Under the pieces are notes generated by a model. The model was not told where the DNA came from, made no database searches, and worked only from the letters and a program-made list of their open reading frames with translations. A stretch of 63,217 nt of DNA from Desulfovibrionaceae bacterium (GTDB lineage Bacteria; Desulfobacterota; Desulfovibrionia; Desulfovibrionales; Desulfovibrionaceae). The stretch lies in the NCBI GenBank assembly GCA_015233395.1, contig JADFXV010000010.1:1-63217 (forward strand), written 5' to 3'. Positions 34,602 to 51,233 of the stretch are shown here, piece after piece (position 1 is the stretch's first letter; each line of letters starts with the position of its first letter). The translations under genes and the position numbers were made by a program.

Positions 34602-35963
34602 ATGGAAGGGAAAAAACCGATCTACCATTCGCTCTATTTCTGGGTCATCACGGGCATCGTCGTCGGCATCCTCCTCGGGTTCATTCCGGCGACAAAGGGT
34701 TTCGCCACGAACCTGCAGCCCCTCGGTCAGGCCTTCATCAAGATGGTCAAGATGCTGATCGCGCCGATCATCTTCTGCACCGTGGTCACCGGCATCGCCA
34801 AGATGGGCGACATGTCCAAGGTCGGCCGCGTCGGCCTCAAGGCCATGGTCTATTTTTGGACCATGACGCTGTTCGCCCTGGCCATCGGCCTGGTGGTGGT
34901 CAACCTCTACGACCCCGGCCAGGGCATGGACCAGTACGCCCAGCAGCTCCAGCAGGACGCCAAGCACATGAAAGAGGTCGAGGCCTACGCGGGCAAGACC
35001 GCCCAGAACACCTCCACCGTCGGCTTCATCATGCACATCATCCCCGACACGGTGGTTGACGCCTTCGCCAAGGGCGAGATCCTTCAGGTGCTCTTTTTCT
35101 CCATCCTGTTCGGCATCGGCCTGGCCACGCTCGGGGAGCGCGGCAAGCTCATGGTGCAGGTGATCGACCAGTTCGCGCGGGGACTCTTCAAAGTCATCCA
35201 CTACATCATGTATTTCGCCCCGTTCGGAGCCTGCGGCGCCATGGCCTTCGTGGTCGCCTCCCAGGGGATTGACGCCTTGGCCAAGCTCTTCATGCTCATG
35301 CTCGGGGTCTACTCCACCTGCCTGGTCTTCATCTTCGTGTGCCTGAACCTGGTCTGCGCCTGGTCGGGCTTTTCGCTGTGGAAGTATCTGAAGTACATCA
35401 AGGAAGAGATCCTGCTGGTGCTTGGCACCTCTTCCTCGGAAGTGGCCCTGCCGCGCATGATGGCCAAGCTCGAGAACGCCGGAGCGGAAAAGTCCGTGGT
35501 GGGCATGGTCATCCCCATGGGCTATTCCTTCAACCTGGACGGCACCTGCATCTACCTGACCATGGCCGCCGTGTTCCTGGCCCAGGCCACCCAGACCCCG
35601 ATGACGTTCAGCGACCAGCTCTACCTGCTCTTCATCCTGCTTCTGACCTCCAAGGGCGCGGCCGCGGTGACCGGCGGCGGCTTCATCACGCTGGCGGCCA
35701 CCCTGCAGACCATGGGCACCATCCCGGTGGCTTCGATGACGCTCCTGCTCGGCGTCGACCGCTTCATGAGCGAGGCCCGCGCCATCACCAACCTGATCGG
35801 CAACGGCATCGCCACCTTCGTGGTCGCCAAATGGGAGGGCGCCCTGGATATGGACCGGATGCAGCGGGTCCTGAACAAGGAAACCGGCGCGGAGGCCGAT
35901 TCGCCCGAGGAAGTCCTGATCACGGACGCCGAAACCGCGAAGAACGGCGCCGGCGGCAAGTAA
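34602..35963 (+). CDS. dctA: Na+/H+:C4-dicarboxylate symporter DctA (DAACS family)
   Basis: 453 residues from ATG 34602 with an AGGAGAGGAG site. It imports fumarate, malate or succinate across the inner membrane. Eight membrane helices with two re-entrant loops are expected. Signature blocks match DctA: GTSSSEVALPRMM, SFNLDGTCIYLTMAAVFLAQ, SKGAAAVTGGGFITLAATL and GVDRFMSEARAITNLIGN, the last running into GIATFVVAKWEGALD as in E. coli DctA. An extra 25-residue acidic C-terminal tail is present. The region about residues 105-140 (QQLQQDAKHMKEVEAYAG) is longer than in E. coli. First gene of the sigma-54 operon. Confidence 0.93.
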   Translation: MEGKKPIYHSLYFWVITGIVVGILLGFIPATKGFATNLQPLGQAFIKMVKMLIAPIIFCTVVTGIAKMGDMSKVGRVGLKAMVYFWTMTLFALAIGLVVVNLYDPGQGMDQYAQQLQQDAKHMKEVEAYAGKTAQNTSTVGFIMHIIPDTVVDAFAKGEILQVLFFSILFGIGLATLGERGKLMVQVIDQFARGLFKVIHYIMYFAPFGACGAMAFVVASQGIDALAKLFMLMLGVYSTCLVFIFVCLNLVCAWSGFSLWKYLKYIKEEILLVLGTSSSEVALPRMMAKLENAGAEKSVVGMVIPMGYSFNLDGTCIYLTMAAVFLAQATQTPMTFSDQLYLLFILLLTSKGAAAVTGGGFITLAATLQTMGTIPVASMTLLLGVDRFMSEARAITNLIGNGIATFVVAKWEGALDMDRMQRVLNKETGAEADSPEEVLITDAETAKNGAGGK

Positions 35964-35997
35964 CCGCCGCCAAGCCGGCGCATATCCGGAGGAGTCA

Positions 35998-36657
35998 ATG
36001 TCCCTATCAACGATCGCGACCCATAGGCCGGTGTCCCCGGGCCTCACGGCGGCCTACCTGGACTGGCTGCAGATGCTCACCGGGGCGGCTCTGATCCTGT
36101 TCATGTGGTGCCACATGATCCTGGTGTCGAGCGTCATCGTGGGCCCCGGGGTCATGAACGCCATCGCCGGTTTCTTCGAGTTCACCTATATGGCCCAACT
36201 CGGCGGGCCGGCGATCTTCGCCGTGTTCCTGGTCCACTTCGTCCTGGCCTCGCGCAAGATCCCCTTCCGCACGGCCGAGCAGAAAGTCATGTGGGCGAAC
36301 GCCAAGCGTCTTGAGCACAAGGACACCTGGTTATGGATGGTCCAGGCCGCAACGGCCATGGTCATCCTGGTCATGGGCGCCATCCACATGTGGGTGGTGC
36401 TCACCGACCTGCCCATCAGCGCCGCCAAAAGCGCCGCCCGCATTCAGACCGGCTGGTGGCTGCTTTTTTATCTGTGCCTCTTGCCCATGGTGGAGCTGCA
36501 CGTCGGCATCGGGCTCTACCGCATCGCCGTCAAGTGGGGCTTCGTGGGCCGCAAGGACCGGAGCGGATTTAAGGTCAAAGAGAATTCGATCACCTACATA
36601 TTCATCGGCATCGGCGTGCTGACCCTCATCCGGTTCATGTTCCTGGCCGTGAAATAA
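35998..36657 (+). CDS. frdC: quinol:fumarate reductase / succinate dehydrogenase diheme cytochrome b subunit
   Basis: 219 residues from ATG 35998. Five membrane helices and four well-placed histidines (H39, H80, H130, H168), whose spacings of 41, 50 and 38 resemble those of the four heme ligands in Wolinella succinogenes FrdC. It anchors the complex and passes electrons between menaquinol and the FrdB clusters. Order C-A-B is that of epsilon- and deltaproteobacterial enzymes (B-type, single large cytochrome subunit), which can work in either direction. The gene is separated from dctA by 34 bases and from frdA by 10 bases. Confidence 0.92.
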   Translation: MSLSTIATHRPVSPGLTAAYLDWLQMLTGAALILFMWCHMILVSSVIVGPGVMNAIAGFFEFTYMAQLGGPAIFAVFLVHFVLASRKIPFRTAEQKVMWANAKRLEHKDTWLWMVQAATAMVILVMGAIHMWVVLTDLPISAAKSAARIQTGWWLLFYLCLLPMVELHVGIGLYRIAVKWGFVGRKDRSGFKVKENSITYIFIGIGVLTLIRFMFLAVK

Positions 36658-36667
36658 GGAAATCGTC

Positions 36668-38503
36668 ATGCAGATCATTCAAACCGATCTCTTGTGCATC
36701 GGCGCCGGCCTGGCCGGCGAACGGGTGGCCATCGAGGCCGCCGGGAACGGATTTTCCGTCATCTGCCTGTCGCTCGTGCCGGCCAGGCGCTCGCATTCCT
36801 CGGCGGCCCAGGGCGGCATGCAGGCGGCGCTCGGCAACTGCGTCATGGGCGAGGGCGACAGCCCCGACGTCCATTTCCAGGACACGGTCAAGGGCTCGGA
36901 CTGGGGCTGCGACCAGGAAGTGGCCCGGCTCTTCGTGGATGGCGGACCGATCGCCATGCGCCAGATGGCCTTCTGGGGCGTGCCCTGGAACCGCGTCGTC
37001 CCCGGAGAGCACACCTACTACAAGGGCGGAAAACCCTTCACGGCCATCGAAAAACAGGAAAAAGAAGGCCTGATCACGGCGCGCAATTTCGGCGGCACGG
37101 CCAAGTGGCGCACCTGCTACACTTCGGACGGCACCGGCCACGCCGTGCTGTACACCTTAGACAACAAGGCCGCCCAGATGGGCGTGGAAGTCCACGACAA
37201 GACCGAGGCCGTGGCCCTGATCCACGACGGCGAAACCTGCATGGGCGCGATCGTGCGCTGCCTGAAAACCGGCGAGCTGCGCGCCTATCTGGCCCGGGCC
37301 ACGCTCGTGGCCACCGGCGGCTTCGGCCGCATCTACCGCGAATCCACCAACGCCGTGATCAACGACGGCGGCGGGCTGATCGTCGCTCTTGACACCGGCG
37401 TGGCGATGCTCGGCAACATGGAGGCGGTGCAGTTCCACCCGACCGGCATCGTGCCCACGGATATCCTGGTCACCGAAGGCTGCCGGGGCGACGGCGGCAC
37501 CCTGCTCGACGTCAACGAATACCGCTTCATGCCCGACTACGAGCCGGAAAAGGCCGAACTGGCCTCGCGCGACGTGGTCTCCCGGCGCATGACCGAACAC
37601 ATGCGCAAGGGCCTGGGCGTCAAGTCCGCCTACGGCGACCACCTCTGGCTCGACATCCGCCATCTGGGCGAAAAGCATATCCGCCACAACCTGCGCGAGG
37701 TGGACGAGATCTGCCAGTCCTTCTTGGGCCGCGATCCGCTCTATCAGCTCATCCCGGTGCGGCCGACCCAGCACTATTCCATGGGCGGCCTGCGCACCAA
37801 CAAGGACGGCGCGGCTTACGGCTTAAAGGGCCTGTTCTCGGCTGGCGAGGCCGCCTGCTGGGACATGCACGGCTTCAACCGCCTGGGCGGCAACTCCTTG
37901 GCCGAGACCATCGTGGCCGGCATGATCGTGGGCGGCAAGGTGGTCGAGTTTCTGGCCGGGACCGACACGGTTTTCAAGACGAAGTGCGTGCGCGAAGCGT
38001 TTGACGCCCAGCAGGGGCGTATCGACCGGCTCCTGGCCGGTCAAAACGGCGCCGAATCCGCCTACGCCATCCGCGACGCCATGTTCGACTCGATCATGGT
38101 CGGCGCGGGCATCTTCCGCAACGGCCGCGACCTAGACGAGTGCGTGAAGACCTTGCAAGTCCTGCACGAACGGGCGGGCAGGGTCGGCCTGCGCTCGGAC
38201 GGCCTGGGCGCCAACCCGGAACAGGCTCTGGCGCTGAAAATCCAGGGCATGGTCAAGCTCGCCCTGTGCGTGGCTTACGGAGCGCTCATGCGCACCGAAT
38301 CGCGCGGCGCGCACACCCGCGAAGACTTCCCCGAGCGCAACGACCGCGACTGGCTTTCGCGCACCCTGGCGACCTGGAAGGACGGCGCGGACCTGCCCAC
38401 GCTGCACTACGAGCCGGCAACCCAAACCTTCGAGATCCCGCCCGGGGACCGGGGGTACGGCGGCGGCAAGATCATCCCCATGCAAACCGAGCAGGGCCGG
38501 TAA
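36668..38503 (+). CDS. frdA: fumarate reductase flavoprotein subunit
   Basis: 611 residues from ATG 36668. An N-terminal dinucleotide-binding GAGLAGERVAIEAA leads to the covalent-FAD histidine H43 in RSHSSAAQGGMQ. Capping-domain and catalytic blocks are HTYYKGGKPF, GGFGRIYRESTNA, QFHPTGIVPTDILVTEGCRGDGG and the RPTQHYSMGG motif with DMHGFNRLGGNSLAET. It interconverts fumarate and succinate on the cytoplasmic side. The length is somewhat shorter than the Wolinella FrdA (about 656). Start codon follows AAGGAAATC. It lies between frdC and frdB. Confidence 0.95.
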   Translation: MQIIQTDLLCIGAGLAGERVAIEAAGNGFSVICLSLVPARRSHSSAAQGGMQAALGNCVMGEGDSPDVHFQDTVKGSDWGCDQEVARLFVDGGPIAMRQMAFWGVPWNRVVPGEHTYYKGGKPFTAIEKQEKEGLITARNFGGTAKWRTCYTSDGTGHAVLYTLDNKAAQMGVEVHDKTEAVALIHDGETCMGAIVRCLKTGELRAYLARATLVATGGFGRIYRESTNAVINDGGGLIVALDTGVAMLGNMEAVQFHPTGIVPTDILVTEGCRGDGGTLLDVNEYRFMPDYEPEKAELASRDVVSRRMTEHMRKGLGVKSAYGDHLWLDIRHLGEKHIRHNLREVDEICQSFLGRDPLYQLIPVRPTQHYSMGGLRTNKDGAAYGLKGLFSAGEAACWDMHGFNRLGGNSLAETIVAGMIVGGKVVEFLAGTDTVFKTKCVREAFDAQQGRIDRLLAGQNGAESAYAIRDAMFDSIMVGAGIFRNGRDLDECVKTLQVLHERAGRVGLRSDGLGANPEQALALKIQGMVKLALCVAYGALMRTESRGAHTREDFPERNDRDWLSRTLATWKDGADLPTLHYEPATQTFEIPPGDRGYGGGKIIPMQTEQGR

Positions 38504-38531
38504 CGGCGCGCGCGACCCCGAGGAGAACGAT

Positions 38532-39284
38532 ATGGCGAGAACGCTTCGCTTCAACATCTTCCGCTACAATCCGCGCAACCCGGCCTCGGTCGCGCACATG
38601 CGGGAGTATAGCCTGGGCGAGACCGAGTCCATGACCCTGTTCATCGCGCTCAACCGCATCCGCGAGGAACAAGATCCCTCTTTGCAGTTCGATTTCTGCT
38701 GCCGGGCCGGCATCTGCGGCGCCTGCGCCATGGTCGTCAACGGCAAGCCGGGCCTGGCCTGCCACACCAAGACCAAGGACATGCCGGGGGAGATCAGCCT
38801 GATGCCGCTGCCCTTCTTCAAACTGGTCGGCGACCTTTCGGTGGACACCGGGTCCTGGTTTCGCGGCATGTACCAGAAGGTCGAGTCCTGGGTGCATACC
38901 TCCAAAACCTTCGACCCGGCGGCCGAGGAAGAACGCATGGACAACGAACTGGCCGAGAAGATCTACGAGCTTGACCGCTGCATCGAGTGCGGCTGCTGCG
39001 TGGCCGCCTGCGGCACGGCGCTGATGCGCGAAGACTTCCTCGGAGCGGTGGCGCTCAACCGCGTGGCCAGGTTCCTGATCGATCCGCGCGACGAGCGCAC
39101 CGAAAAGGAATACTTCGATGTGGTCGGCAGCGACGACGGCGTCTTCGGCTGCATGGGCCTTCTGGCCTGCGAAGACGTCTGCCCCAAGGACATCCCGCTC
39201 CAGGACCAGCTCGGCATGCTGCGGCGCAAGATGGCCCTGGCCGCGGTGCGGGGCATGCTGCCGAAGTTTTTGAGGAAAGATTAG
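38532..39284 (+). CDS. frdB: fumarate reductase iron-sulfur subunit
   Basis: 250 residues from ATG 38532 with GAGGAG upstream. The N-terminal plant-type ferredoxin domain holds C57, C62, C65 and C77 (CRAGICGAC, then GLACHTK), ligands of a [2Fe-2S] cluster. The C-terminal domain has CIECGCCVAAC and CMGLLACEDVCPKDIP, ligands for the [4Fe-4S] and [3Fe-4S] clusters. It carries electrons from the heme subunit to FAD in FrdA. It is the normal length for the family. Two strong hairpins follow before the fumarase genes. Confidence 0.94.
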   Translation: MARTLRFNIFRYNPRNPASVAHMREYSLGETESMTLFIALNRIREEQDPSLQFDFCCRAGICGACAMVVNGKPGLACHTKTKDMPGEISLMPLPFFKLVGDLSVDTGSWFRGMYQKVESWVHTSKTFDPAAEEERMDNELAEKIYELDRCIECGCCVAACGTALMREDFLGAVALNRVARFLIDPRDERTEKEYFDVVGSDDGVFGCMGLLACEDVCPKDIPLQDQLGMLRRKMALAAVRGMLPKFLRKD

Positions 39285-39302
39285 TAGAGAGGGGGGAGGG
39301 AA

Positions 39303-39344
39303 TTGGGGGAAGAACCCTTTGTGAACAAAGGGTTCTTCCCCCAA
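39303..39344. terminator. 19-bp hairpin between frdB and fumA
   Basis: A perfect 19-bp stem (39303-39321 with 39326-39344) and a 4-base loop. It has no following T-run on the plus strand, so it may lower distal transcription or protect the frdB 3' end rather than stop transcription fully. Confidence 0.6.
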
Positions 39345-39393
39345 ACCCCCATCTCCTAAAAACTTTAAAGTTTTTTGGGGAAAGGTGGGGCCT

Positions 39394-39437
39394 GGGGAGG
39401 AAAACCCCTTTTGTCCACAAAAGGGGTTTTCCTCCCC
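39394..39437. terminator. 21-bp hairpin before fumA (GGGGAAAACCCCTTTT family)
   Basis: Arms 39394-39414 and 39417-39437 are perfectly complementary. It is a relative of the hairpin at 62756-62799, with the shared core AAAACCCCTTTT/AAAAGGGGTTTT, and is 33 bases upstream of the fumA start. Between the two hairpins lies a small palindrome (AAAAACTTTAAAGTTTTT, near 39358). Confidence 0.6.
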
Positions 39438-39470
39438 GGATTCCTCTCCCAAACGCCAAGGAGGAAAGCG

Positions 39471-40310
39471 ATGCGAACGATAGCCGCGAGCTACATCATC
39501 GAAAAAGTCGCGGACATGTGCATCAGGGCCAACCGCGAACTGCCGGCCGACGTTCTGGCCGCGTTTGCGCGGCGCCAGGCCGAGGAAACCGGGCCGGCGG
39601 CCAAGGAGATTTTTCGCCAGTTGCTCGAAAACGCCGCCTTGGCCGCCGAAACCGGGCTGCCCTTGTGCCAGGACTGCGGCTTGGCCGTGTTCTTCGTGGA
39701 GTTGGGCGAGGACGTGAAGATCGAAGGCATGGGCCTGCGTCAGGCGATCAATGAAGGCATGGTCAAGGGCTACAAGGACGGCTACCTGCGCAAGTCCTCC
39801 TGCGACCCGTTTACGCGCAAGAACACCGGCGACAATTCCCCGGCCATCATCCATTTCGACGTCGTGCCCGGGGACAAGCTCAAAATCTCCATGATGGCCA
39901 AGGGGGGAGGATCGGAGAACATGTCGCGGGCGACCATGTTCGCCCCGGCCCAGGGTTGGAAGGGCATCAAGGAATTCGTGGTCACCCGGGTGGCCGAGGC
40001 CGGCCCCAACCCCTGCCCGCCGGTGATCGTGGGCGTGGGCATCGGCGGCAACTTCGAGCTGGCGGCGATCAATTCCAAGAAGGTCCTGCTGCGCGAGCTC
40101 GGCGACACCCACCCCGACCCGGCCGTCGCCAAACTCGAAGAGGAGCTTTTCACGGCCATCAACCGGCTCGGCGTCGGCCCCATGGGCCTTGGAGGCGCGA
40201 CCACCTGCCTGGCGGTCAAGATTCTGGTCGCGCCCTGCCATCTGGCCAGCCTGCCTCTGGCCGTGAATATTCAGTGCCACTCCGCACGGCACAAGGAGGT
40301 GGTATTGTAA
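39471..40310 (+). CDS. fumA: class I fumarate hydratase, alpha subunit
   Basis: 279 residues from ATG 39471 with AAGGAGGAAA. The protein is the N-terminal half of iron-dependent fumarase. It has the LPLCQDCGLAVFFVE block with the first cluster Cys, RKSSCDPFTRKNTGDNSP, the KGGGSENMSRATMF loop, and the C-terminal GPMGLGGATTCLAVKI with a further ligand. It forms a [4Fe-4S] enzyme with the beta subunit and reversibly hydrates fumarate to malate. The stop overlaps the start of the beta gene (TAATG). In this operon it feeds fumarate reductase from malate. Confidence 0.93.
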   Translation: MRTIAASYIIEKVADMCIRANRELPADVLAAFARRQAEETGPAAKEIFRQLLENAALAAETGLPLCQDCGLAVFFVELGEDVKIEGMGLRQAINEGMVKGYKDGYLRKSSCDPFTRKNTGDNSPAIIHFDVVPGDKLKISMMAKGGGSENMSRATMFAPAQGWKGIKEFVVTRVAEAGPNPCPPVIVGVGIGGNFELAAINSKKVLLRELGDTHPDPAVAKLEEELFTAINRLGVGPMGLGGATTCLAVKILVAPCHLASLPLAVNIQCHSARHKEVVL

Positions 40311-40864
40311 TGAGCGAACATCATCTGAAAACGCCGCTGACCGACGCGGACGTGGAAAAGCTGGCCATCGGCGACGTGGTGTACCTGACCGGGACCATCT
40401 ACACCGGCCGCGACGCGGCCCACAAGCGCCTGGCCGATTCGCTCGACAAGGGCGAGGCCCTGCCGTTTGATCTCAAGGGCGCGCTCATCTACTACGTGGG
40501 CCCAAGCCCCGCTCCTCCCGGACGCCCCATCGGCGCGGCCGGACCGACCACCAGCTACCGCATGGACTCTTTCGCCCCGCGCCTGTACGGCCTGGGGCTC
40601 AAGGCCACCATCGGCAAGGGCAAGAGATCCCAGGAAGTCAAGGACGCCATGGTCAAGCACAAGGCGGTCTACCTCGGGGCCACCGGCGGCGCGGGCGCGC
40701 TCTTGTCCCAGCGCATCAAGGCGGCCAAGGTCATCGCCTACGAAGACCTGGGGCCGGAAGCCATCCGCGAACTCTCCGTGGAGGATTTTCCGTTGCTGGT
40801 CATCAACGACTGCCGAGGCGGCGAGCTTTACGTGCAGCCCGATCTGGCGTCGGCCCTGGCCTGA
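40310..40864 (+). CDS. fumB: class I fumarate hydratase, beta subunit
   Basis: 184 residues from ATG 40310, in TAATG overlap with the alpha gene. Matches the C-terminal half of class I fumarase/L(+)-tartrate dehydratase: [47 protein letters not shown], and [16 protein letters not shown], with [23 protein letters not shown]. Fumarase and tartrate dehydratase cannot be separated safely from sequence, but the frd context strongly favours fumarase. A hairpin at 40886-40914 follows. Confidence 0.92.
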
Positions 40865-40956: not shown

Positions 40957-43900
40957 ATGATCCCCTATGACGACCCGGCGGCGGAAAAAACCATGCCCGT
41001 GGGCGCGGCCCTGGTGGTCGGGGCCGGAATCGCCGGCATGCAGGCCGCCCTCGACCTGGCCGATCACGGTTTCAAGGTCTATTTGGTCGAGCGCGAGGCC
41101 GGGATCGGCGGGGCCATGGCCCAGTTGGACAAGACCTTCCCGACCAACGACTGCGCCCTCTGAATCAGCTCGCCCAAGCTCGTCGAGTGCGGTCGGCACC
41201 CGAACATCGAACTCATCACCCTGGCCGAAGTCGCCAAGGTCGAAGGCCAGGCCGGAAACTTCACCGTCACCCTGGCCGTGGCCCCGCGCTACGTCGATCT
41301 TGACAAGTGCATCGCCTGCGGCGAGTGCGCCGCCAAGTGCCCAAAGCGCGTCCCCGACCCGTTCAACGCCGGTCTGGCCAATCGCAAGGCTGCCTACATC
41401 CTCTACGGCCAGACCGTGCCGCTCAAATACGCGATCGATCCCGAGCACTGCATCTACCTCGCCAAGGGTAAGTGCCGGGCCTGCGAAAAGGTCTGCCCCA
41501 CGGGGGCCGTCAATCTCGATCAGACCGGCGTCCACCGCCTGCTTCAGGTCGGCGCGATCGTGCTCGCCGCGGGTTTTAAGACCTTCGATCCCTCGCACCT
41601 GGATTATCTGGGCCTGCGGCGCGCGCCTGACGTGGTCACCAGCCTGGAGTACGAGCGCCTCTTGTCCTCCTCCGGACCGAACCGGGGCCATTTGAAGCGG
41701 CCCTCGGACGGGGCCGAGCCGAAAAAGGTGGCCTGGATCCAGTGCGTGGGCTCGCGGTCGCTCAACAAATGCGACAACGCCTATTGTTCGGGCGTGTGCT
41801 GCATGGCCGCCGTCAAGCAGGCGCTCATGACCGCCGAGCATGTCAAGGACGTCGCCGACCGGGCGATCTACTGCATGGACATGCGCACCCATGGCAAGAA
41901 TTTCGAAAGCTACTACGAAAAGGCCCAGGCCCAGGGCGTGCGTTTTCTGCGCTCCAGGCCGCACACGCTTGGTCCCGGACCGCAAGGCAAGGGCGTGCGC
42001 ATACGCTACGCCAGCGAGGCGCGCCGGGAACTCATCCTGGACTTCGACCTGGCCGTGCTCTCGGTCGGCCTGGAAGCGCCGCGCCACTTCGCACGGCTCG
42101 CCGAAACCACGGGCATCGCCGTAAACGATCTGCGTTTCGCCGCTGCCCAGGACCTGACCCCGGTGGCGTCGAGCCGGCCGGGAATTTATGTCTGCGGCTG
42201 CTTCACCGGTCCCAAGGACATTCCCCAATCGGTGGTCGAGGCCTCGGCCGCGGCCTGCGCCGCCGCCGGTCAGCTCGTCCTGGCTCGGGGAGCCTTCGTG
42301 CCCGAGACCGCGATCCGTCCGGTCATCGACGTTGCCGGGGAGCCGCCGCGCCTGGGCGTGTTCGTCTGCTCCTGCGGCGCCAACATCGCCGGGGTGGTGG
42401 ATGTGGACAGGGTGGCGGGCGAGGCGGCAAAGCTCCCGGGCGTGGCCCACGTGGAAAACGCCCTGTTCGCCTGTTCCCAGGATTTTCAGGAGCGCATCGC
42501 TTTGGCGGTGCGCGAGCACGGGCTCAACCGGGTGGTGGTGGCGGCCTGCACCCCGCGCACCCATGAGCCGCTTTTCCAGGAAACCATCGCCGGCGCCGGG
42601 CTCAACAAATATCTCTTCGAGATGGCCAATATCCGCAACCAGGCCTCCTGGGTCCACGCCGCCGATCCGGCCGCGGCCACGGACCGGGCCGTCGACCAGG
42701 TGCGCATGGCCGCGGCCAAGGCCGCGCGGCTTCGCCCCTTGAGCGAACCCAAACTTTCGGTCATCCCCCGGGCGCTGGTCGTCGGCGGCGGACTGGCCGG
42801 CATGACCGCCGCGCTGGAACTGGCCAAACAGGATTTTACGGTCCACATCGTCGAGCGCCAGGCGGAGCTGGGCGGCAACGCGCGCTCGCTTCGGGCCACG
42901 CTCGGCGGCCAGGACGTGGCCATGCACCTGGCCAGGCTGCGCCGCCGGGTGGAGGAAGAAGGGCGCATCACCGTGCATCTGGGCAAGGTGGTCGCCCAGG
43001 TCGAGGGCTACGTCGGCCGCTTCGCCACCACGCTCACGGCGGTCGGCGGCCACGGCGAGTCCGAGGTCGTGGAGCACGGCGCGGCCATCCTGGCCGTGGG
43101 CGGCCAGGAAGCCAAACCGAACGACTACGGCCACGGCAAGCACCACCGCGTCATGACCCACCTGGAGATCGACCGGGCCTTGCGTTTCGGCTCGCTCGAC
43201 CCCTACGACGTGGGCAGCGCCGTGTTCATCCAGTGCGTCGGCTCGCGCGAGCCCAAGCGGCCGTATTGCTCCAGGCTGTGCTGCACGCACACGCTCAAGA
43301 CCGTCTTGTACCTCAAGGAGAAAAACCCGGACCTGCGCGCCTACGTGCTTTACCGCGACATGCGCCCCTACGGCGAACGCGAGTTGCTCTACCAGAAGGC
43401 GCGCGAACTGGGCGTGATCTTTATCCGCTTCGAACTGGAGACCAAGCCTTGGGTGGTGGTCGGCGGCGACGACATCACGGTCTATGTCAAGGACCATATC
43501 CTGGGAGACCTGCTGGAGCTGCCGGCCGACATCCTCGGCTTGGCCACGGGCATCGAGCCGAGCGACGCGGCCGACTTGGCGAGAATGTTCAAAGTGCCGC
43601 TGGACGCCGACGGCTGGCTGGTCGAAGCCCACGCCAAGCTTCGGCCCGTGGATTTCGCCACCGACGGCGTGTTCATGGCCGGCATGGCCCATTACCCCAA
43701 ACCCATCGAGGAGGCCGTGGCCCAGGCCCAGGCCGCCGCCGGCCGGGCCGGGGCGCTGCTCGCCCGCGAGGAGATCACCCTGCCCGGCCTGATCTCGCGC
43801 ATCGACGCCGCTTTGTGCTCGGGCTGCGGCGTGTGCCTGGCGGTCTGCCCTTACGGGGCGATTTCGCGCGGCGAAGCGAACCTGGCCGAGGTCAACGAGG

Positions 43901-44456: not shown

Positions 44457-44457
44457 C

Positions 44458-45420
44458 ATGCAAACGCGAATCGTGAACATCCGCGCCGCCGCGAAGGCGG
44501 CCCTGGAAGAAGGGCTGTGCCGGGTGGTGGCCGGCTACGCCCCGGGCGCCATAGCCATGCGCGCGCGGCCGGTCTTCATCGACAAGCCCGAAGACGCGGG
44601 CAAACTGACCTGGAGCAGCTTTTGCGTGGGCAACCTGGCCGGACTGCTCACTCAGGCGGCAAAGCAAGCATCCGGCAGGATCGGCGTGGTCGCCCAGGGC
44701 TGCGTCAGCCGGAACCTGGTCGGGCTGATCGGCGAGGGCAGGCTGGCGCGCGAAGACCTCTATGTCATCGGCGTTCCCTGCCTGGGCATGGCCGAACGGC
44801 GCAAGATCGAGGCCAGATACCCCGGCCGGGCGATCATCGCCGTGGAGGAATCCGAGGAGGTGTTCGTGGTCCGGGGCAAGCGCCGCGAAGAGCGCATGCT
44901 GCGCCGCGACGCGCTCAGGGACAACTGCTACACTTGCGTGCAGCGCAACCCCGTGATTTACGACGCGCTGGTCGCCGAACCCGTGCCCGACACCGGCGGA
45001 GGCGATATCGACAAGGTGGCCGCGCCCTGGGAAAAACATCCGCCCGGGGAACGCCTGGCGGCTTTTCAGGCGGCCTACGCGAACTGCACCCGCTGCCACG
45101 CCTGCCGGGACGTCTGCCCGCTGTGCTATTGTTCGACCTGTTTCGTGGACGAATCGACGCCGCAGTGGGCGGGCAAGACCGGCGATTTCGCCGACGTCGC
45201 CACCTACCACCTGCTGCGCGCCCTGCACTGCGCCGGGCGCTGCACCGACTGCGGCGCCTGCGAGTCGGCTTGTCCGCAGAACATCAAGGTGCGCCGGCTT
45301 ACCTCAAAATTGGAGAAGGACGTGCGCGCCCTCTACGGCTGCCAGGCCGGCATGGCGCTTGGCGAATCGCCGCCGCTGACCGTGTTTCGGCCCGACGATC
45401 CTCAGGATTTCATCAAATAG
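44458..45420 (+). CDS. flxC: Flx-module iron-sulfur protein (FlxC-like)
   Basis: 320 residues from ATG 44458, one base after the flxD stop. The N-terminal 190 residues contain FrhB/FdhB-like segments (GQGCVSRNL-type VAQGCVSRNLVGLIGEG, VIGVPCLGMAERRKIEARYPG), then Cys-rich ferredoxin motifs CTRCHACRDVCPLCYCSTC and CTDCGACESACPQNIK. It would pass electrons between the flavin subunit FlxA and HdrA. Similarity to Flx iron-sulfur subunits is by layout and context; the B/C naming could be swapped relative to other species. Confidence 0.75.
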   Translation: MQTRIVNIRAAAKAALEEGLCRVVAGYAPGAIAMRARPVFIDKPEDAGKLTWSSFCVGNLAGLLTQAAKQASGRIGVVAQGCVSRNLVGLIGEGRLAREDLYVIGVPCLGMAERRKIEARYPGRAIIAVEESEEVFVVRGKRREERMLRRDALRDNCYTCVQRNPVIYDALVAEPVPDTGGGDIDKVAAPWEKHPPGERLAAFQAAYANCTRCHACRDVCPLCYCSTCFVDESTPQWAGKTGDFADVATYHLLRALHCAGRCTDCGACESACPQNIKVRRLTSKLEKDVRALYGCQAGMALGESPPLTVFRPDDPQDFIK

Positions 45421-45429: not shown

Positions 45430-46530
45430 ATGCAGAGTTACCTTTTGGCCAAAGACCGCCTGGACGGTTTCGTCTCCCGCTTGGCGGATAGACTTACGGT
45501 CTATGTTCCGGCCAAGGGCGCGGACGGGCTTTGGAGCTTTGTCGCCTCCGGGAGCGCGCAGCCCCCTCTCGCCTTGACGCCCGAGGGCGGCAACACGAAC
45601 ATGCCGCCGAAGTCCTTTGTCTTTCCCCGGACCGAGGTGCTCATGCGCTTTGACAACCGCGCGGGCGAGGGGGGCATGATCTTGCGCGAGGAGCCTGTCC
45701 CGGCCGGACGCGCCGTGCTGCTCGGGGTGCGGCCCTGCGACGCCAAGGCCCTGGCCGTGCTCGACGGGATTTTTGGCCGCCGCGCGTCCGGTGACGCTTC
45801 CGGCGAAGTTTCCGGCGGAGCTTTTGGCGCCGACCCCTACTGGGCGGCCAGGCGCGAAGCCACGATCCTCTGCGGCCTGGCCTGCAACTATCCCTGCCCG
45901 ACCTGTTTTTGCGATCAGATGGGCTGCGGCCCGCACCACCGCGAAGGGCTCGACGCCCTGTGGACGGATCTGGGCGAGTCCTATCTCGTCACAATCCTGA
46001 CCGAGCGCGGCCGCGAACTGGCGAGCGATCTGGCGCCGGCGGCCCAAGCCGACCTTAACCGGGCCGAGAGCCTCAAGGCCGAGGCCGCCTCGCTTCTGAC
46101 CGGGAAGTTTCCCATGGACAAAATTGCGCAACGCGGGGTGCTCGAATTGTGCGAGCTGCCCCTGTGGGCGGAGCTGGCCGCGACCTGCCTGAACTGCGGG
46201 GCCTGCACCCACGTCTGCCCGACCTGCCACTGCTTCGACATCCAAGACGAGGTCAAGGGGGAACGCGGCCGCCGGCTGCGCAACTGGGACACCTGCATGT
46301 CGGGCCTGTTCACCCGCCACGCCTCGGGGCACAACCCGCGCGGCGACAAACTCGCCCGGGTGCGCCAGCGGTTCATGCACAAATTCAAGTACATCCCGGT
46401 CAAACGCGGCGAGGCCGGTTGCGTGGGCTGCGGCCGCTGCATCAAGGCCTGCCCGGTGAACATCGACGTGCGCGAGGTGGTCCGGGCCATGAACGAGCAG
46501 GCCCCCCAAACCCCGGAGGGCGCGGCGTGA
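45430..46530 (+). CDS. flxB: Flx-module iron-sulfur protein, hydrogenase/sulfite-reductase-associated type (FlxB-like, AsrA-related)
   Basis: 366 residues from ATG 45430. Resembles the iron-sulfur partner of FAD/NAD(P)H subunits in cytoplasmic hydrogenases and anaerobic sulfite reductase (AsrA): an N-terminal domain with LGVRPCDAKALAVLDGIF and LCGLACNYPCPTCFCDQMGCGP, and a C-terminal 2[4Fe-4S] domain with CLNCGACTHVCPTCHCFD, and CVGCGRCIKACPVNIDVRE. It shares the operon with the flavin subunit, whose GTG start overlaps its stop (GTGA). Its role is wiring NAD(P)H electrons to HdrA. Confidence 0.8.
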   Translation: MQSYLLAKDRLDGFVSRLADRLTVYVPAKGADGLWSFVASGSAQPPLALTPEGGNTNMPPKSFVFPRTEVLMRFDNRAGEGGMILREEPVPAGRAVLLGVRPCDAKALAVLDGIFGRRASGDASGEVSGGAFGADPYWAARREATILCGLACNYPCPTCFCDQMGCGPHHREGLDALWTDLGESYLVTILTERGRELASDLAPAAQADLNRAESLKAEAASLLTGKFPMDKIAQRGVLELCELPLWAELAATCLNCGACTHVCPTCHCFDIQDEVKGERGRRLRNWDTCMSGLFTRHASGHNPRGDKLARVRQRFMHKFKYIPVKRGEAGCVGCGRCIKACPVNIDVREVVRAMNEQAPQTPEGAA

Positions 46531-47366
46531 ACAATCCCTATCTGCCGTATCCGGCGCGCCTAACCGGCGTGCGGGAGGAGACCGAGGACAAGTCCATCCG
46601 CACCTTCCGGCTTGAGTTGCTGGACCCGGGCCAGGCCGGGGCGTTCGCTTACGTCCCGGGGCAGTTCGCCGAACTCTCCCTGGCGGGCGTGGGCGAAGCG
46701 CCCATCGGCATCGCCTCCAGCCCGACCGAGGGCCAAGAGCTCCTCTTTTCGGTTTTCCGCACCGGCAAGGTGACCGAGGCTCTGCACGCGCTCGCCCCGG
46801 GCGCGGTCATGGGCGTGCGCGGCCCGCTGGGCAAGGGATTTCCGCTTGGAGACCTGAAAGGCGAAAATCTGGTCATCATCGCCGGCGGCTTCGCCGTGAC
46901 CACCCTGCGCTCGGCCATGGTCTGGCTGCTCGACCCGGCCAACCGGGGCGACTTCGGCGAGATCACCTTCATTTACGGAGCGCGCACGCCGGGCATGCTG
47001 CTCTACCGCGAGCAGCTTGCGACATGGGCCGCGCGCGCGGACGTCGCCTGCCATGTCGCCGTGGACCGGCCGGCCCCGGGTTGGGACGGACAGGTGGGAT
47101 TTGTGCCCCAAATCGTCGCCGAGGCCGCTCCCCGCCCGGAAAACGCCGCCGCCCTGGTCTGCGGGCCGCCGGCGATGATCAAATACACCCAGCCGGTTTT
47201 GAGCGAACTGGGTTGGCAAGACGGCCAAATCTTTTTATCGCTGGAGAACCGCATGAAGTGCGGCATCGGCGTCTGCGGGCGGTGCAACGTCGGTCCCTAT
47301 TACGTGTGCAAGGACGGACCGGTGTTCACCAAGGCCGAACTCGACCTTCTGCCGAAGGAATACTGA
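46527..47366 (+). CDS. flxA: Flx-module FAD/NAD(P)H-binding subunit (FlxA-like, AsrB-related)
   Basis: 279 residues from GTG 46527. Ferredoxin reductase-type fold: FAD domain with YVPGQFAELSLAG (RxYS-like region altered) and the pyrophosphate-binding GPLGKGFPLGDLKGENLVIIAGGFAV, then the NAD(P)H domain FIYGARTPGMLLYREQL. The C-terminal CGIGVCGRCNVGPYYVCKDGPVF provides the cysteines for a [2Fe-2S] cluster, as in dihydroorotate dehydrogenase PyrK/AsrB relatives. It oxidises NAD(P)H and passes electrons to HdrA through FlxB-D. Last of four coupled flx genes here in the order D-C-B-A. Confidence 0.85.
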   Translation: MNNPYLPYPARLTGVREETEDKSIRTFRLELLDPGQAGAFAYVPGQFAELSLAGVGEAPIGIASSPTEGQELLFSVFRTGKVTEALHALAPGAVMGVRGPLGKGFPLGDLKGENLVIIAGGFAVTTLRSAMVWLLDPANRGDFGEITFIYGARTPGMLLYREQLATWAARADVACHVAVDRPAPGWDGQVGFVPQIVAEAAPRPENAAALVCGPPAMIKYTQPVLSELGWQDGQIFLSLENRMKCGIGVCGRCNVGPYYVCKDGPVFTKAELDLLPKEY

Positions 47367-47443
47367 GGCGGAAAAAAGGACTTGCAACCGGGGGCGCTGG
47401 TCGCGTCGCTCCCGCCAAACCCTGCTGTGCGGCGAGGTACTCC

Positions 47444-48301
47444 ATGGCCAACACCATCTTGCGAAAACGCAGCCTGATCCCGGGCACGACCAGCGAACTG
47501 GTCGTCGACGCGCCGCATATCGCGGCCAAGGCCCGGCCGGGCAATTTCGTGATCCTGCGGGTCTGTCCCGACGGCGAGCGCATCCCCCTGACCATCGCCG
47601 ACGCCGACCCCACGGCCGGCACCATCACCATCGTCTATCTCGTGCTCGGCAAGACCACCGCCCACCTGGAGACCCTGGGGGAAGGCGACGGCATCCTGGA
47701 CCTGTGCGGCCCGCTCGGCCGCGCCACGGACATCCACAAGCTGCCGGGCGAGGTGATCTGCGTCGGCGGCGGCACGGGCATCGCCGCCATGCACCACATC
47801 GCCAAGGGCCATCACAAGGCAGGCAATTACGTGGTCGGCGTGATCGGAGCCCGCAGCCGGGAGCTTTTGCTTTTTTACGACGAACTCAAGGCCATCTGCC
47901 CGGAAGTGCTGGTCTCCACCAACGACGGCAGCTTCGGCCGCCAGGGCCTGGTGACCGAGCTTCTGCAGGAGCGCCTGAAAAACTCGCCTCTGGTCTCCGA
48001 GGTCGTGGGCGTGGGCCCGGTGCCCATGATGGAGGCCGTGGCCAAAGTGACCAAGCCGTTTGGCGTCAAGACCACCGTCAGCCTCAACTCCATCATGGTG
48101 GACGGCATCGGCATGTGCGGCGCCTGCCGCGTTTCGGTCGGGGGCAAGACCAAGTTCGCCTGTGTGGACGGTCCGGAGTTCGACGGCCAGCTGGTGGACT
48201 ACCGCGAACTGTCCCAGCGGCTCGGCGCGTTTAAGCCCCAGGAACAACGCTCATACGAGGAGTTCAAGAAAAGCCATGTCTGCAAATGCACCCACTCCTA
48301 A
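47444..48301 (+). CDS. nfnA: NADH-dependent ferredoxin:NADP+ oxidoreductase, subunit A
   Basis: 285 residues from ATG 47444. Contains FAD-binding (PLTIADADPTAGTITIVYLVLG) and NAD-binding domains (EVICVGGGTGIAAMHHIAKG; GARSRELLLFYDEL), and a C-terminal [2Fe-2S] motif, MCGACRVSVGGKTKFACVDGPEFDG. NfnA carries the NAD(H) site and an unusual Asp-ligated [2Fe-2S] cluster in the Thermotoga enzyme. The pair with NfnB is clear. The gene begins 77 bases after flxA and overlaps nfnB by 26 bases. The complex bifurcates NADPH electrons to ferredoxin and NAD+, or the reverse. Confidence 0.92.
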   Translation: MANTILRKRSLIPGTTSELVVDAPHIAAKARPGNFVILRVCPDGERIPLTIADADPTAGTITIVYLVLGKTTAHLETLGEGDGILDLCGPLGRATDIHKLPGEVICVGGGTGIAAMHHIAKGHHKAGNYVVGVIGARSRELLLFYDELKAICPEVLVSTNDGSFGRQGLVTELLQERLKNSPLVSEVVGVGPVPMMEAVAKVTKPFGVKTTVSLNSIMVDGIGMCGACRVSVGGKTKFACVDGPEFDGQLVDYRELSQRLGAFKPQEQRSYEEFKKSHVCKCTHS

Positions 48302-49706
48302 AGGCAAAAAGACCGGGCCCCGCACCCCCATGCCCGAGCAGGCCCCGGCCGCTCGCGTGAAAAATTTCAGCGAGGTGGCCCTCGGCTACACCCCGGACTT
48401 GGCCAAGGCCGAGGCTGTCCGTTGCCTGAGCTGCAAAAAGCCTCCGTGCCGCAAGGGCTGTCCGGTGGAGATCGACATCCCGGGCTTCATCGCCAGGATC
48501 GTGGCGAACGACCTGGACGGGGCGTACAAGGTCATCCGGGAGACCAACAGCCTGCCGGCCGTGTGCGGCCGGGTCTGTCCGCAGGAAGTGCAATGCGAGG
48601 GCCAGTGCATTCTGGGCAAAAAACACGAGCCCGTGGCCATCGGCCGCCTGGAGCGCTTTGTGGCCGACGCCCATCTTTCGGCCTCGGCCTGCGAGACGCT
48701 GACCGGCGGCGACGAATGCAAACTCGTGCGCGAGGATTTGAAAGTCGCCTGCATCGGAAGCGGCCCTTCGAGCCTGACCGTGGCCGGCTACCTCGCCGCC
48801 CAGGGGATCAAGGTCACGGTCTTCGAGGCCCTGCACGAACTCGGCGGCGTCCTGGTCTACGGCATTCCCGAGTTCCGCCTGCCCAAGGCGATCGTGCGCC
48901 AGGAAATCGACGCCATGCGCGCCCAGGGCGTGGAATTCAAGACCAACTGGGTCGGCGGCATGACCATCACCGTGCCCGAGCTGCTGGAGCAGGGCTACAA
49001 GGCGGTGTTCATCGGCGTGGGCGCGGGCCTGCCCAAGTTTCTCGGCGTGCCGGGCGAAAACCTGATCGGCATGTTCTCGGCCAACGAGTTCCTCACGAGG
49101 GTCAACCTCGGCCGGGCCTATAAGTTCCCCGAGGCCGACACGCCGGTCATCGCGGGCAAGAACGTGGTCGTGTTCGGCGGCGGCAACGTGGCCATGGACG
49201 CGGCCCGCACGGCCATGCGCCTGGGCGCGGACGCGGTGACTCTCGCCTACCGCCGCGGCGAACCCGAGATGCCCGCCCGCAAGGAAGAACTGCACCACGC
49301 CAAGGAAGAGGGCCTGATCCTCAAATGCCTGCACGGTCCCATCGAATTCACCGGCGACGACAAAGGCTACCTCACGGGCGTGCGGCTGCAGAAGATGACG
49401 CTCGGGGAACCCGACGCCTCCGGCCGCTGCCGGCCGGTCGTCTGCGAGGGCGACACCTGCGAAGTGCCCTGCGACATGGCCGTGGTCGCCGTGGGCACCG
49501 GGGCCAATCCGTTGATCCCCCAAACCACCCCGGGCTTGTCCGTCAACAAATGGGGCTACATCGAAGCCGATCCGGAAACCGGAGAGACGAACATGCCGGG
49601 CGTCTTCGCCGGCGGCGACATCGTCACCGGCGCGGCCACGGTCATCTCGGCCATGGGCGCCGGCCGCAAGGCGGCCAAGGAAATCGCCAGGCGGCTGCTC
49701 GGATAG
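48276..49706 (+). CDS. nfnB: NADH-dependent ferredoxin:NADP+ oxidoreductase, subunit B (GltD-like)
   Basis: 476 residues from ATG 48276 inside the nfnA 3' end. The N-terminal domain binds two [4Fe-4S] clusters (CLSCKKPPCRKGCPVEIDIPGFI; CGRVCPQEVQCEGQCILGKK). The glutamate synthase small-subunit-type body has FAD motif CIGSGPSSLTVAGYLAAQG and NADPH motif VVVFGGGNVAMDAARTAMRLG with AYRRGEPEMPARKEE. The C-terminal GDIVTGAATVISAMGAGRKAAKEI closes the FAD site. NfnB hosts the bifurcating FAD and the NADPH site. Stand-alone GltD is excluded because NfnA lies next to it and no gltB is present. Confidence 0.93.
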   Translation: MSANAPTPKGKKTGPRTPMPEQAPAARVKNFSEVALGYTPDLAKAEAVRCLSCKKPPCRKGCPVEIDIPGFIARIVANDLDGAYKVIRETNSLPAVCGRVCPQEVQCEGQCILGKKHEPVAIGRLERFVADAHLSASACETLTGGDECKLVREDLKVACIGSGPSSLTVAGYLAAQGIKVTVFEALHELGGVLVYGIPEFRLPKAIVRQEIDAMRAQGVEFKTNWVGGMTITVPELLEQGYKAVFIGVGAGLPKFLGVPGENLIGMFSANEFLTRVNLGRAYKFPEADTPVIAGKNVVVFGGGNVAMDAARTAMRLGADAVTLAYRRGEPEMPARKEELHHAKEEGLILKCLHGPIEFTGDDKGYLTGVRLQKMTLGEPDASGRCRPVVCEGDTCEVPCDMAVVAVGTGANPLIPQTTPGLSVNKWGYIEADPETGETNMPGVFAGGDIVTGAATVISAMGAGRKAAKEIARRLLG

Positions 49707-49919
49707 GCAAGAGAATCGGGGGGAAAACCCCTTTCCTCAAAAAACTTTTCCGGGGGGACTGGGGCTGCGCGGTTTGAAGCAGCACCCGCGCGGCCCCCTT
49801 GGTTTGAGGGCGGGGCTAAGGGGCGCCAGCCCCTCGGAAAAAACAGTGATTTTGGTTTTCAATCGTCGCGAACAACGGCCGCGCGCGGGCCGCAATGATC
49901 CTGCCCGAGGGGGCTCGCT
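49707..49919. terminator. hairpin-rich spacer between nfnB and the HdrC-HdrB fusion gene
   Basis: The 213-base gap has two stems: 49761-49772 with 49786-49797 (12 bp, one G-U) and GGGGCT/AGCCCC (49812-49817, 49828-49833). There is also a worn GGGGAAAACCCCTTT element near 49719. A partial terminator is plausible, so the downstream gene may have its own promoter, though none was recognised. Confidence 0.45.
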
Positions 49920-51233
49920 ATGCTGGTAGTCCAACCCCGGGAGCTTCCCCCCGCCGTAAGGAAGCATTTCAAGAAGTACGACCTCGGCCGTTGCCTGACC
50001 TGCGGCGCCTGTTCCAGCGGCTGCCCGATCACCGGCATGCCTGGCATGGAGAAATACGACACCCGCAAGGTGATCCGCATGATTTCGCTCGGCCTGCTCG
50101 ACGAGGTGGTCGCCTCGAATTTTCCTTGGGTATGCACCGGCTGCGGCCGCTGCGCCCACGCCTGTCCCATGAACATCGACATCGTGCCGGTCATGGCGCA
50201 CTTGAAACACCTGCGTGCGCGCGACGAAGTGCCGGGCATCCTGCACAAGGGCGTGGAAAAGGTCATGGAGACGGGCAACAACATGGCCATCTCCAAGGCC
50301 GATTACCTGGGCGCCCTGGCCGACGTGGGCGCGGAGCTCGCAAGCGAGGATTGCCCGGGCTTCTACGTGCCCGTGGACAAACCCGGGGCGGACATCCTGT
50401 TTTTCCCCAATTCCAAGGAAATCTACGGCGACTTCGAGGACTTGAAATGGTGGTGGAAGATCTTCTACGCCGCCCGAGAGTCCTGGACCGTGCCCTCGGA
50501 AAACTGGGAGGCCGTGGACTGGGGGCTGTTCACCGCCAACTACCAGGTCACGCGCGTCCTGGCCCAGCGCAAGATCGACAAGCTGCGCGAACTCGGGGTG
50601 CGGCGCATGATCATGCCCGACTGCGGCGGCGGCTCCTACGGCTGCCGGGTGGGCATGAAATTCTGCTCCCTCGACGACCCGTCCAACAAGGTCAATTACG
50701 CCTATCTCTACGAATACCTGCTCGAACTCATGAAGGCCGGCCGGGTTACGCTCGACAAATCGGTCAACGCCGGACGCCGCTTCACCTGGCACGATTCCTG
50801 TAAACACGGCCGCGAACTGGCCCGGCATTTCGGCTTCGGCTATTTCGACGAGCCGCGCTGGATCATCGCCCAATGCGTGGACGACTTCGTGGAAATGACC
50901 CCGAACCGGGAAAACAATTTCTGCTGCGGCGCCGGGGGCGGCAACTGGCCCATGCCCTATGAAAAGGAATCGGCCTCCCACGGCAGGTTCAAGGCCGGCC
51001 AGATTCGCGAGACCGGCGCGGACGTGGTGGTGGTCGGTTGTTCCAACTGCCGCGACCAGATCATGCGCCGCCTGCCCAAGCACTACCCGGACCTGAAGTA
51101 CGAAGTGAAATACCTCTGGCAGCTGGTGGCCGAATCGCTGGTCATCGAACCAAGGAGCGAAGGCGAGGTCCGGGTCCTTGCGGCCGAAGCCGCGGCCCAG
51201 TGGGCCGCCTTCGGGGTGGAAGTCGAGGAATGA
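49920..51233 (+). CDS. fused HdrC-HdrB-like iron-sulfur protein (CCG domain, HdrD/TmcB type)
   Basis: 437 residues from ATG 49920. The N-terminus is HdrC-like, with C25, C28, C31, C35 and C72, C75, C78, C82 for two [4Fe-4S] clusters. The C-terminal two-thirds are HdrB-like: a degenerate first CCG repeat (MPDCGGGSYGCRVGM) and a full second one, C294-x40-C335-C336-x37-C374-x2-C377, expected to bind the active noncubane cluster of heterodisulfide reductases. HdrA in the operon has no separate hdrB/hdrC, so this fused protein probably supplies disulfide reduction, or a thiol/quinone interface. No membrane segment is seen. Its substrate is unknown. Confidence 0.85.
   Translation: MLVVQPRELPPAVRKHFKKYDLGRCLTCGACSSGCPITGMPGMEKYDTRKVIRMISLGLLDEVVASNFPWVCTGCGRCAHACPMNIDIVPVMAHLKHLRARDEVPGILHKGVEKVMETGNNMAISKADYLGALADVGAELASEDCPGFYVPVDKPGADILFFPNSKEIYGDFEDLKWWWKIFYAARESWTVPSENWEAVDWGLFTANYQVTRVLAQRKIDKLRELGVRRMIMPDCGGGSYGCRVGMKFCSLDDPSNKVNYAYLYEYLLELMKAGRVTLDKSVNAGRRFTWHDSCKHGRELARHFGFGYFDEPRWIIAQCVDDFVEMTPNRENNFCCGAGGGNWPMPYEKESASHGRFKAGQIRETGADVVVVGCSNCRDQIMRRLPKHYPDLKYEVKYLWQLVAESLVIEPRSEGEVRVLAAEAAAQWAAFGVEVEE

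Follow-up and report, generated by a model that had tools for sequence, protein, structure and literature searches.

The gene row reported here lies at positions 30936-51233 (+ strand) of a 63,217-nt stretch of DNA (the window) from a sulfate-reducing Desulfovibrionaceae bacterium, and joins genes for C4-dicarboxylate uptake, fumarate reductase (frd) and fumarase (fum) to Flx-Hdr and Nfn genes. Four described systems come closest to it. In Desulfovibrio alaskensis G20, NfnAB-2 (Dde_1250:1), a malate dehydrogenase/malic enzyme (Dde_1253) and fumarase (Dde_1254:5) have adjacent numbers, with fitness roles on malate and fumarate, where fumarase and fumarate reductase matter as well; the Hdr/flox-1 genes (Dde_1207:13) lie apart, and the strain has Rnf, two Hdr/flox and two Nfn (PMC4215793). 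Mutants in nfnAB-2 reached 22% of wild-type growth on malate/sulfate and roughly 10% on fumarate/sulfate (PMC4916218), and a figure legend in PMC6405883 gives FRD, FHD and MDH among the genes drawn with nfn. In D. vulgaris Hildenborough, FlxABCD-HdrABC (DVU_2399 to DVU_2404) has a Flx module feeding a 70.9 kDa HdrA, separate HdrB and HdrC, and fused FlxC-FlxD, and is encoded near alcohol dehydrogenases, apart from frd-fum at DVU_3261 to DVU_3265 (PMC10920352, PMC4287179). The glpC-hdrA-frhD-frhG-frhA operons of Syntrophobacter fumaroxidans combine a selenocysteine (Sec) HdrA with an Fe-S oxidoreductase, an MvhD-type subunit and hydrogenase input (PMC1794560). In the reverse tricarboxylic acid cycle (rTCA) clusters of tubeworm symbionts and Thioflavicoccus, flxABCD-hdrABC is interspersed with tfrAB, a putative thiol-type fumarate reductase (PMC6315080). 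The available text on the D. vulgaris sigma-54 regulome mentions no dctA, frd, malate or hdr (PMC4641369).

The row has the order sigma-54 activator, -24/-12 site, dctA, frdC, frdA, frdB, fumA, fumB, hdrA, flxD, flxC, flxB, flxA, nfnA, nfnB, hdrCB, and the 14 genes from dctA to hdrCB are co-directional, as an earlier description of this DNA made without database searches (the sequence-only reading) had claimed. Unlike in G20, Flx and Nfn are each encoded here by one copy, located within the row alongside Sec-HdrA and HdrCB; compared with Hildenborough, HdrA is 1021 aa long with Sec, and an HdrD/DsrK-like protein stands in place of HdrBC. Where the S. fumaroxidans operons have hydrogenase input, this row has Flx (NADH) input and is coupled to fumarate genes, and where the rTCA clusters have a putative thiol-type enzyme, the fumarate reductase is here of the menaquinol type with a cytochrome b. 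No described frd/Hdr-Flx operon in Desulfovibrionaceae was found in the available text of the open-licence PMC literature. The statement that no such unit had been described is too strong for fum, malic enzyme and nfn (PMC4215793, PMC4916218; PMC6405883); as far as searched, only the Flx-Hdr part is undescribed, a role of Nfn in malate/fumarate growth being already known in G20. We favour, with modest confidence, the view that sigma-54 controls the row as an operon serving C4-dicarboxylate growth. Nfn and Flx-HdrA would keep NAD(P)H cycling as fumarate is reduced by FrdCAB. The observation itself was confirmed with small corrections, and the interpretation first given to it is partly supported (see below).

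Gene content and order, conservation of promoter and half-sites, the Sec codon and recurrence were read from the sequences. Neighbourhoods in relatives were obtained by tblastn with the window genes, and with Pfam on some unmatched open reading frames (ORFs); among 288 genomes of the family, flxA was found in 232 and fumA in 262. A genome counted as linked when its fumA and flxA shared a contig and a strand and lay no more than about 14 kb apart, and the resulting figures are lower bounds, among the places listed. In at least 22 of the 288 genomes, from five genera, frd-fum was linked to Flx-Hdr, with two kinds of Hdr-Flx. These were, in our numbering of genomes (G) and genera (g), the genome of the window (G000); G022 of g23; G020, G249, G250 and G254 of g21; at least 6/7 genomes of g9 (G008, G049, G244, G245, G246, G247); and at least 10/15 of g29 (G028, G060, G082, G255, G256, G257, G259, G263, G265, G266). 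Thirteen were read as neighbourhoods (G000, G022, G020, G249, G250, G254, G008, G246, G247, G028, G060, G082, G259) and nine by coordinates only; in the other genera, matched by eye, no flxA-fumA linkage was seen among the places listed. The link is thus not peculiar to the genome in which it was noticed, and its recurrence across genera rejects chance neighbours in one genome. A crude binomial estimate for flxA lying on the strand of fumA, no more than 13.5 kb from it, gave 2e-7 for at least 5/35 genera and 3e-4 for at least 3/35; since genera are not independent, these figures are not real probabilities. The finding of Flx-Hdr beside the same fumarate genes in several related genera suggests a functional connection between the two, and two kinds of Flx-Hdr at these genes in five genera point to fumarate or malate as a growth condition under which the complex could be tested.

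Gene order varied among the linked rows. In g9 (G008, G246, G247, G074), dctA-frdCAB-fumAB-nfnAB was followed by an HdrC-like match, HdrB (with two CCG stretches in G074, where tested), an HdrA-like gene whose piecewise alignment covers ~40-60% of the window HdrA, and flxDCBA; the G074 row leaves the contig end after flxB. In g29 (G028, G082, G060, G259), frdCAB-fumAB preceded an HdrC-like match, HdrB, an HdrA-like gene and flxDCBA, and the HdrB proteins of G028 and G082 each showed two CCG stretches. Judged by gene order, the g9 and g29 complexes are probably ordinary HdrABC-FlxABCD. Rows of g21 (G020, G249, G250, G254) contained frdCAB-fumAB, malic enzyme, nfnAB, a distant hdrCB (31%), Sec-hdrA and flxDCBA, with frdC cut in G249 and the G250 stretch beginning inside frdA, and that of G022 read frdCAB-fumAB-Sec-hdrA-flxDCBA-hdrCB-malic enzyme; malic enzyme was found inside the row in G020 and G254 (Pfam-confirmed in both) and in G022. 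A Sec-type flxA (66-71% identity) was present in eight genomes besides that of the window, frd-linked in 5/8. Rows free of Hdr also occurred: G024 and G079 (g25) had activator-dctA-frdCAB-fumAB-nfnAB, G338 (g25) likewise from frdC on, and G056 and G078 (g21) also had frd-fum-nfn without Hdr in the fetched stretches; in G068, G092, G089 and G300 frd-fum adjoined neither nfn nor Hdr.

Two trees bear on the history of the linkage. The HdrA tree (107 rows, quick method), in which the window row carries an odd-composition flag, placed all six frd-linked Sec-HdrA rows in one group (support 92, 0/500 shuffles). A single origin of the linkage was rejected, as this group was not reproduced by the flxA tree (55 selected rows, careful method: 21 linked and 34 unlinked, counting G074, broken at a contig end, as unlinked). 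There, linked copies fell in three separate parts, namely the Sec type, g29 and g9, the Sec type mixing five linked with four unlinked copies; the 21 linked copies required five changes (gains or losses), at least four of them forced by starred branches. The unlinked flxA paralogues of G244, G245 and G247 branched apart from their linked copies. Repeated recruitment of Flx-Hdr to frd-fum would be the simplest reading, and an old linkage with losses is a possible alternative history.

The row had also been described as standing behind an NtrC-type activator and a perfect -24/-12 promoter. The promoter proved perfect, TGGCACGGCGATTGC matching 10/10 fixed positions, and together with an activator carrying PF00158 it forms the pair expected of a sigma-54 regulon. 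The activator does have the sigma-54 AAA domain and a Fis helix-turn-helix (HTH); Pfam reports several PAS domains and no receiver domain, which sets it apart from classical NtrC response regulators. Upstream of dctA (34173-34210) we found tandem palindromes, TGTGGCGCCAC(A/G)TGC, which comprise all three zero-mismatch matches to this pattern in the genome; with up to one mismatch the pattern was not commoner than its reversed control (10 matches vs 13). A 5-nt-spaced TGTGGC/GCCACA palindrome was discarded, not being enriched in the window (2 matches vs 3.6 expected). TGTGGC/GCCACA half-sites were also present upstream of the unit in relatives. Sixteen unit starts, each preceded by 150 nt of sequence or more, were compared, and seven of them (G000, G008, G022, G024, G079, G246, G247; genera g1, g9, g23, g25) had a -24/-12 site with 9-10/10 matches, found thus in six genomes besides that of the window, plus at least three half-sites. 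Among 400 random stretches of the same loci, drawn without restriction to intergenic DNA, an equal promoter occurred 3-12 times and an equal half-site count 2-24 times. The row of G022 has no dctA adjoining frdC, yet both elements are present. The two were not found together in 9/16 starts (G020, G254, G056 and G078 of g21; G028, G082 and G060 of g29; G300; G074), G074 having two half-sites upstream of dctA and a 9/10 site only downstream of it. A looser -24/-12 scan (up to two mismatches) gave 55 window matches, below the 77 expected, so that weight can be given only to the perfect match and to its conservation. Conserved promoter and half-sites, which support the proposed sigma-54 control, are the best evidence for shared control, and the row would form one regulon. 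Note that a sigma-70-like match lies just upstream of the -24/-12 site, at 34278-34305 (2 in the region vs 2.0 expected), and that the window holds a second perfect -24/-12 match at 1911-1925, minus strand.

The protein assignments that underlie the proposal are collected in the table below, and some call for comment. FrdC cytochrome b, FrdA and FrdB make up a quinol:fumarate reductase of the Wolinella/Desulfovibrio type. The best solved relative of FrdC was 5xmj_C, from a fumarate reductase respiratory complex (258.6 bits), followed by diheme quinol:fumarate reductase chains such as 1qlb, and its NF010072 score was under cut-off (157.9 vs 187). A thiol:fumarate reductase (TfrAB) was rejected because FrdB has no CCG domain (no PF02754). 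The genome holds a second frdA-frdB pair (G000:C158:32404-34221, locus L080; 76%/74% identity), beside which tblastn found no frdC.

HdrA combines an HdrA core with another, HdrA-like half and has 4Fe-4S sites at its C-terminal end; its gene adjoins flx, and it matches HdrA2/HdrA models and PDB HdrA chains but is longer and under the model cut-offs. The single in-frame TGA (residue 69) lies within the motif PTNDCxx(C/U)I, for which the scanned loci gave 116 matches: 93 TGA, 14 TGC, 9 TGT and no TAA/TAG, under a pattern that permitted only Cys or stop at the Sec position, and with a few repeats since the HdrA rows of loci L075 and L097 are identical. The letter aligned to residue 69 is X in PDB 9sfi_A and Cys in 8rvv_A. 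The tRNA-Sec model RF01852 matched contig C69 of the genome with 85.7 bits (next best 47.2); it matched in 14/14 control genomes as well, above cut-off in 5. The 61-nt local fold after the TGA, inspected for a SECIS hairpin, was no better than shuffles (z 0.68). A TGA where homologues have Cys or TGA, and a tRNA-Sec in the genome, indicate that HdrA is probably a selenoprotein.

The four Flx subunits, including an NAD(P)H-binding FlxA and an MvhD-type FlxD, correspond to FlxABCD, and the DHODB-type NfnA with the GltD-like NfnB, which carries Fer4_20, to an NfnAB transhydrogenase. The last gene had been called an HdrC-HdrB fusion, and it is not a plain one: there is a single CCG match, and the best models were HmcF (NF045711), TmcB (NF045724) and DsrK (NF045796), whose cut-offs (750, 735 and 400 bits) are all above the scores obtained (164.5, 140.2 and 127.3 bits). 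We therefore label HdrCB as a putative HdrD/DsrK-like protein, and the separate HdrC and two-CCG HdrB of a FlxABCD-HdrABC are absent here. HmcF, TmcB and DsrK work beside membrane cytochromes b. In G015 (locus L069, 5705-12996), a 68% hdrCB, Sec-hdrA and an MvhD-type gene precede genes for Oxidored_q6 and NiFe-hydrogenase, and the stretch fetched there contains no frd. Since this arrangement resembles the glpC-hdrA-frhDGA operons (PMC1794560), Sec-HdrA plus HdrCB is a known core that accepts different input modules.

Table 1. Features of the gene row and its control region in the window
Feature	Position	Strand	Evidence
Sigma-54 activator, several PAS, AAA, Fis HTH	30936..34139	+	PF00158 221.8 bits, PAS families, PF02954
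Tandem palindrome GCATGTGGCGCCAC(A/G)TGC, putative activator binding site	34173..34210	.	inverted repeat, 19-nt arms, 95%
-24/-12 sigma-54 promoter TGGCACGGCGATTGC	34323..34337	+	all ten fixed positions matched
dctA, C4-dicarboxylate symporter	34602..35963	+	PF00375 369.8 bits
frdC, cytochrome b of quinol:fumarate reductase	35998..36657	+	PF01127
frdA	36668..38503	+	NF006383 1061.6 bits, cut-off 663
frdB	38532..39284	+	PF13085 and Fer4 families only; no CCG domain
Hairpin array between frdB and fumA	39285..39470	.	25-nt and 21-nt inverted repeats; fold
fumA, fumarase alpha part	39471..40310	+	PF05681 367.9 bits
fumB, fumarase beta part	40310..40864	+	PF05683 191.1 bits
hdrA, 1021 aa, two FAD modules, C-terminal 4Fe-4S sites	40957..44022	+	TGA (Sec) codon, residue 69
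flxD, MvhD/FlpD-type subunit	44019..44456	+	PF02662 165.6 bits; GTG start at 44019 overlaps hdrA stop
flxC, 4Fe-4S protein	44458..45420	+	Fer4 families
flxB, HydB/AsrA-like 4Fe-4S protein	45430..46530	+	PF17179 117.9 bits; NF040833 139.5 bits, under cut-off
flxA, FAD/NAD(P)H-binding, GTG start	46527..47366	+	NF006220 214 bits, under cut-off; PDB 9nez_C sulfhydrogenase gamma
nfnA, FAD/NAD, DHODB-type	47444..48301	+	PF10418; NF004862 372.9 bits, cut-off 220
nfnB, GltD-like	48276..49706	+	PF14691, PF07992; TIGR01316 547.6 bits, cut-off 471.75
hdrCB, HdrD/DsrK/HmcF/TmcB-like soluble protein, 4Fe-4S dicluster	49920..51233	+	PF13183; PF02754 one stretch

In the proposed operon, DctA would import fumarate or malate and FumAB would interconvert both. 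The oxidative branch would run through malic enzyme, encoded elsewhere in the genome (contig C93, outside the row), and presumably pyruvate oxidation, yielding NAD(P)H and reduced ferredoxin, and menaquinol would be the electron donor for fumarate reduction by FrdCAB. Nfn would trade NADPH against NADH and ferredoxin; NADH would be oxidised by FlxABC and its electrons passed through the MvhD-type FlxD to Sec-HdrA, which would split them between ferredoxin and the HdrD/DsrK-like HdrCB. HdrCB, in turn, would reduce a disulfide, most likely DsrC, or feed the quinone pool. Overall, NAD(P)H from the oxidative branch would thereby be recycled, with fumarate accepting the other electrons. The direction of flow and the acceptor of HdrCB are those that seem likeliest to us; a Hdr-Flx that oxidises NADH and probably passes electrons to DsrC has been proposed in PMC10920352. 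The genome yielded one flxA (E <= 1e-50), one nfnB (E <= 1e-120) and two FlpD matches, the second of these at two HdrA-like genes adjoining an APS reductase beta gene, which we take to be qmoAB. RnfC (RnfC_N) was not found, other Rnf subunits not having been searched for. In a genome that yielded a single Flx, a single Nfn and no RnfC, the effects of single deletions should be readable without masking by paralogues.

Several observations weigh against this proposal, some of them in the junctions between genes. The ends had been described as mostly overlapping or near-touching, which is true of junctions from -26 to +34 nt and not of four wider gaps, frdB-fumA (186 nt), fumB-hdrA (92), flxA-nfnA (77) and nfnB-hdrCB (213), the full span being -26 to +213. 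The frdB-fumA gap folds at -114.4 kcal/mol (z -8.88, 0/200 shuffles as low). Measured between aligned ends at 23 loci, this gap spanned 7-37 nt at 15 of them and 134-291 nt at the other eight (G000, G008, G068, G074, G089, G246, G247, G300), and the z scores of the long gaps against 60 shuffles ranged from -1.8 (G008) to -9.1 (G068, locus L079), with -7.8 in G300 (L186), -6.0 in G246 (L179), -4.1 in G074 (L176), -3.6 in G089 (L084) and -2.8 in G247 (L180). Long folded gaps occur with or without Hdr-Flx, and the structured gap is thus not private to this genome. The hairpins may cut or attenuate the transcript, and hence fum and everything downstream. In addition, the g21 and g29 units tested had no sigma-54/half-site elements, and none of the 79 named long-HdrA loci (best 80 of 577), many on short contigs, adjoined frdB, frdC, fumA or fumB; one frdA match of 30% identity at such a locus was read as another flavoprotein, and all four flx genes were present at 8/79. 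As no RnfC was found, the Nfn-ferredoxin-Rnf scheme of G20 may not apply. The sole copies of Flx and Nfn that were found might have a role in general metabolism.

These gaps lend some weight to a tentative alternative in which the modules merely lie side by side, dctA-frdCAB being a sigma-54 unit and fumAB-hdrA-flx-nfn-hdrCB being expressed apart or at another level for redox housekeeping. The recurrence of the structured frdB-fumA gap in six relatives raised our confidence in it and lowered that in the single operon; the three further gaps, flxA and nfnB as single copies, and Flx-Hdr unlinked to fumA in other genera, among the places listed, point the same way. Against it, the + strand of the four wide gaps had no sigma-70-like site and no -24/-12-like site within two mismatches, frdB and fumA lie no more than 37 nt apart in 15/23 loci, and the linkage of frd-fum to Flx-Hdr recurs. 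The nfnB-hdrCB gap was mildly structured (z -1.51). An arm of the frdB-fumA gap belongs to a dispersed palindromic element with AAAACCCCTTTTG-like arms, found at four places in the window (39394-39437, 49724, 62762-62793 and 3775; 8 matches with up to two mismatches, both arms counted, vs 1.6 expected).

Nfn- and Hdr-type bifurcating enzymes can in principle run in either direction, which would allow Hdr-Flx to work as a confurcating enzyme, making NADH from ferredoxin and a thiol such as reduced DsrC, e.g., in fermentation or reverse succinate use. The succinate released by G20 on fumarate/sulfate or malate/sulfate later vanishes (PMC4215793, available text), in agreement with such use; however, growth on C4-dicarboxylates would supply NAD(P)H via malic enzyme, so that NADH oxidation is probably the likelier need, and we consider this explanation unlikely. 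Rather improbable, in our judgement, is the bolder proposal that fumarate respiration is the dedicated sink of this Flx-Hdr branch, with electrons of NADH split to ferredoxin and, via HdrCB and then, at FrdC or close to it, the quinone pool, to fumarate; if true, it would be a bifurcating NADH:fumarate system needing no sulfite or DsrC, assembled several times in the family. A direct coupling, in which HdrCB delivers electrons into the quinone pool at FrdC or in its vicinity and an NADH:fumarate path drives ferredoxin reduction, would suit the likeness of HdrCB to HmcF/TmcB/DsrK, FrdC as the only cytochrome b in the row and the flxABCD-hdrABC complex suggested to act with tfrAB and korABCD in rTCA clusters (PMC6315080, available text), but seems very unlikely given the two-CCG HdrB at the corresponding place in g29 and g9 where tested (G028, G082, G074) and the hdrCB of G015 beside Sec-hdrA and hydrogenase genes.

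Outside the row, malic enzyme was looked for at the 3' end of the window and was absent there. The next gene downstream of hdrCB is a glycosyltransferase gene on the minus strand, and group 1 glycosyltransferase genes flank the row (21607-24603, 27368-29749 and 51253-52446, minus; 55285-56481, plus). An aldehyde:ferredoxin oxidoreductase gene (PF01314, PF02730; 13314-15119, minus) encodes a possible further ferredoxin user.

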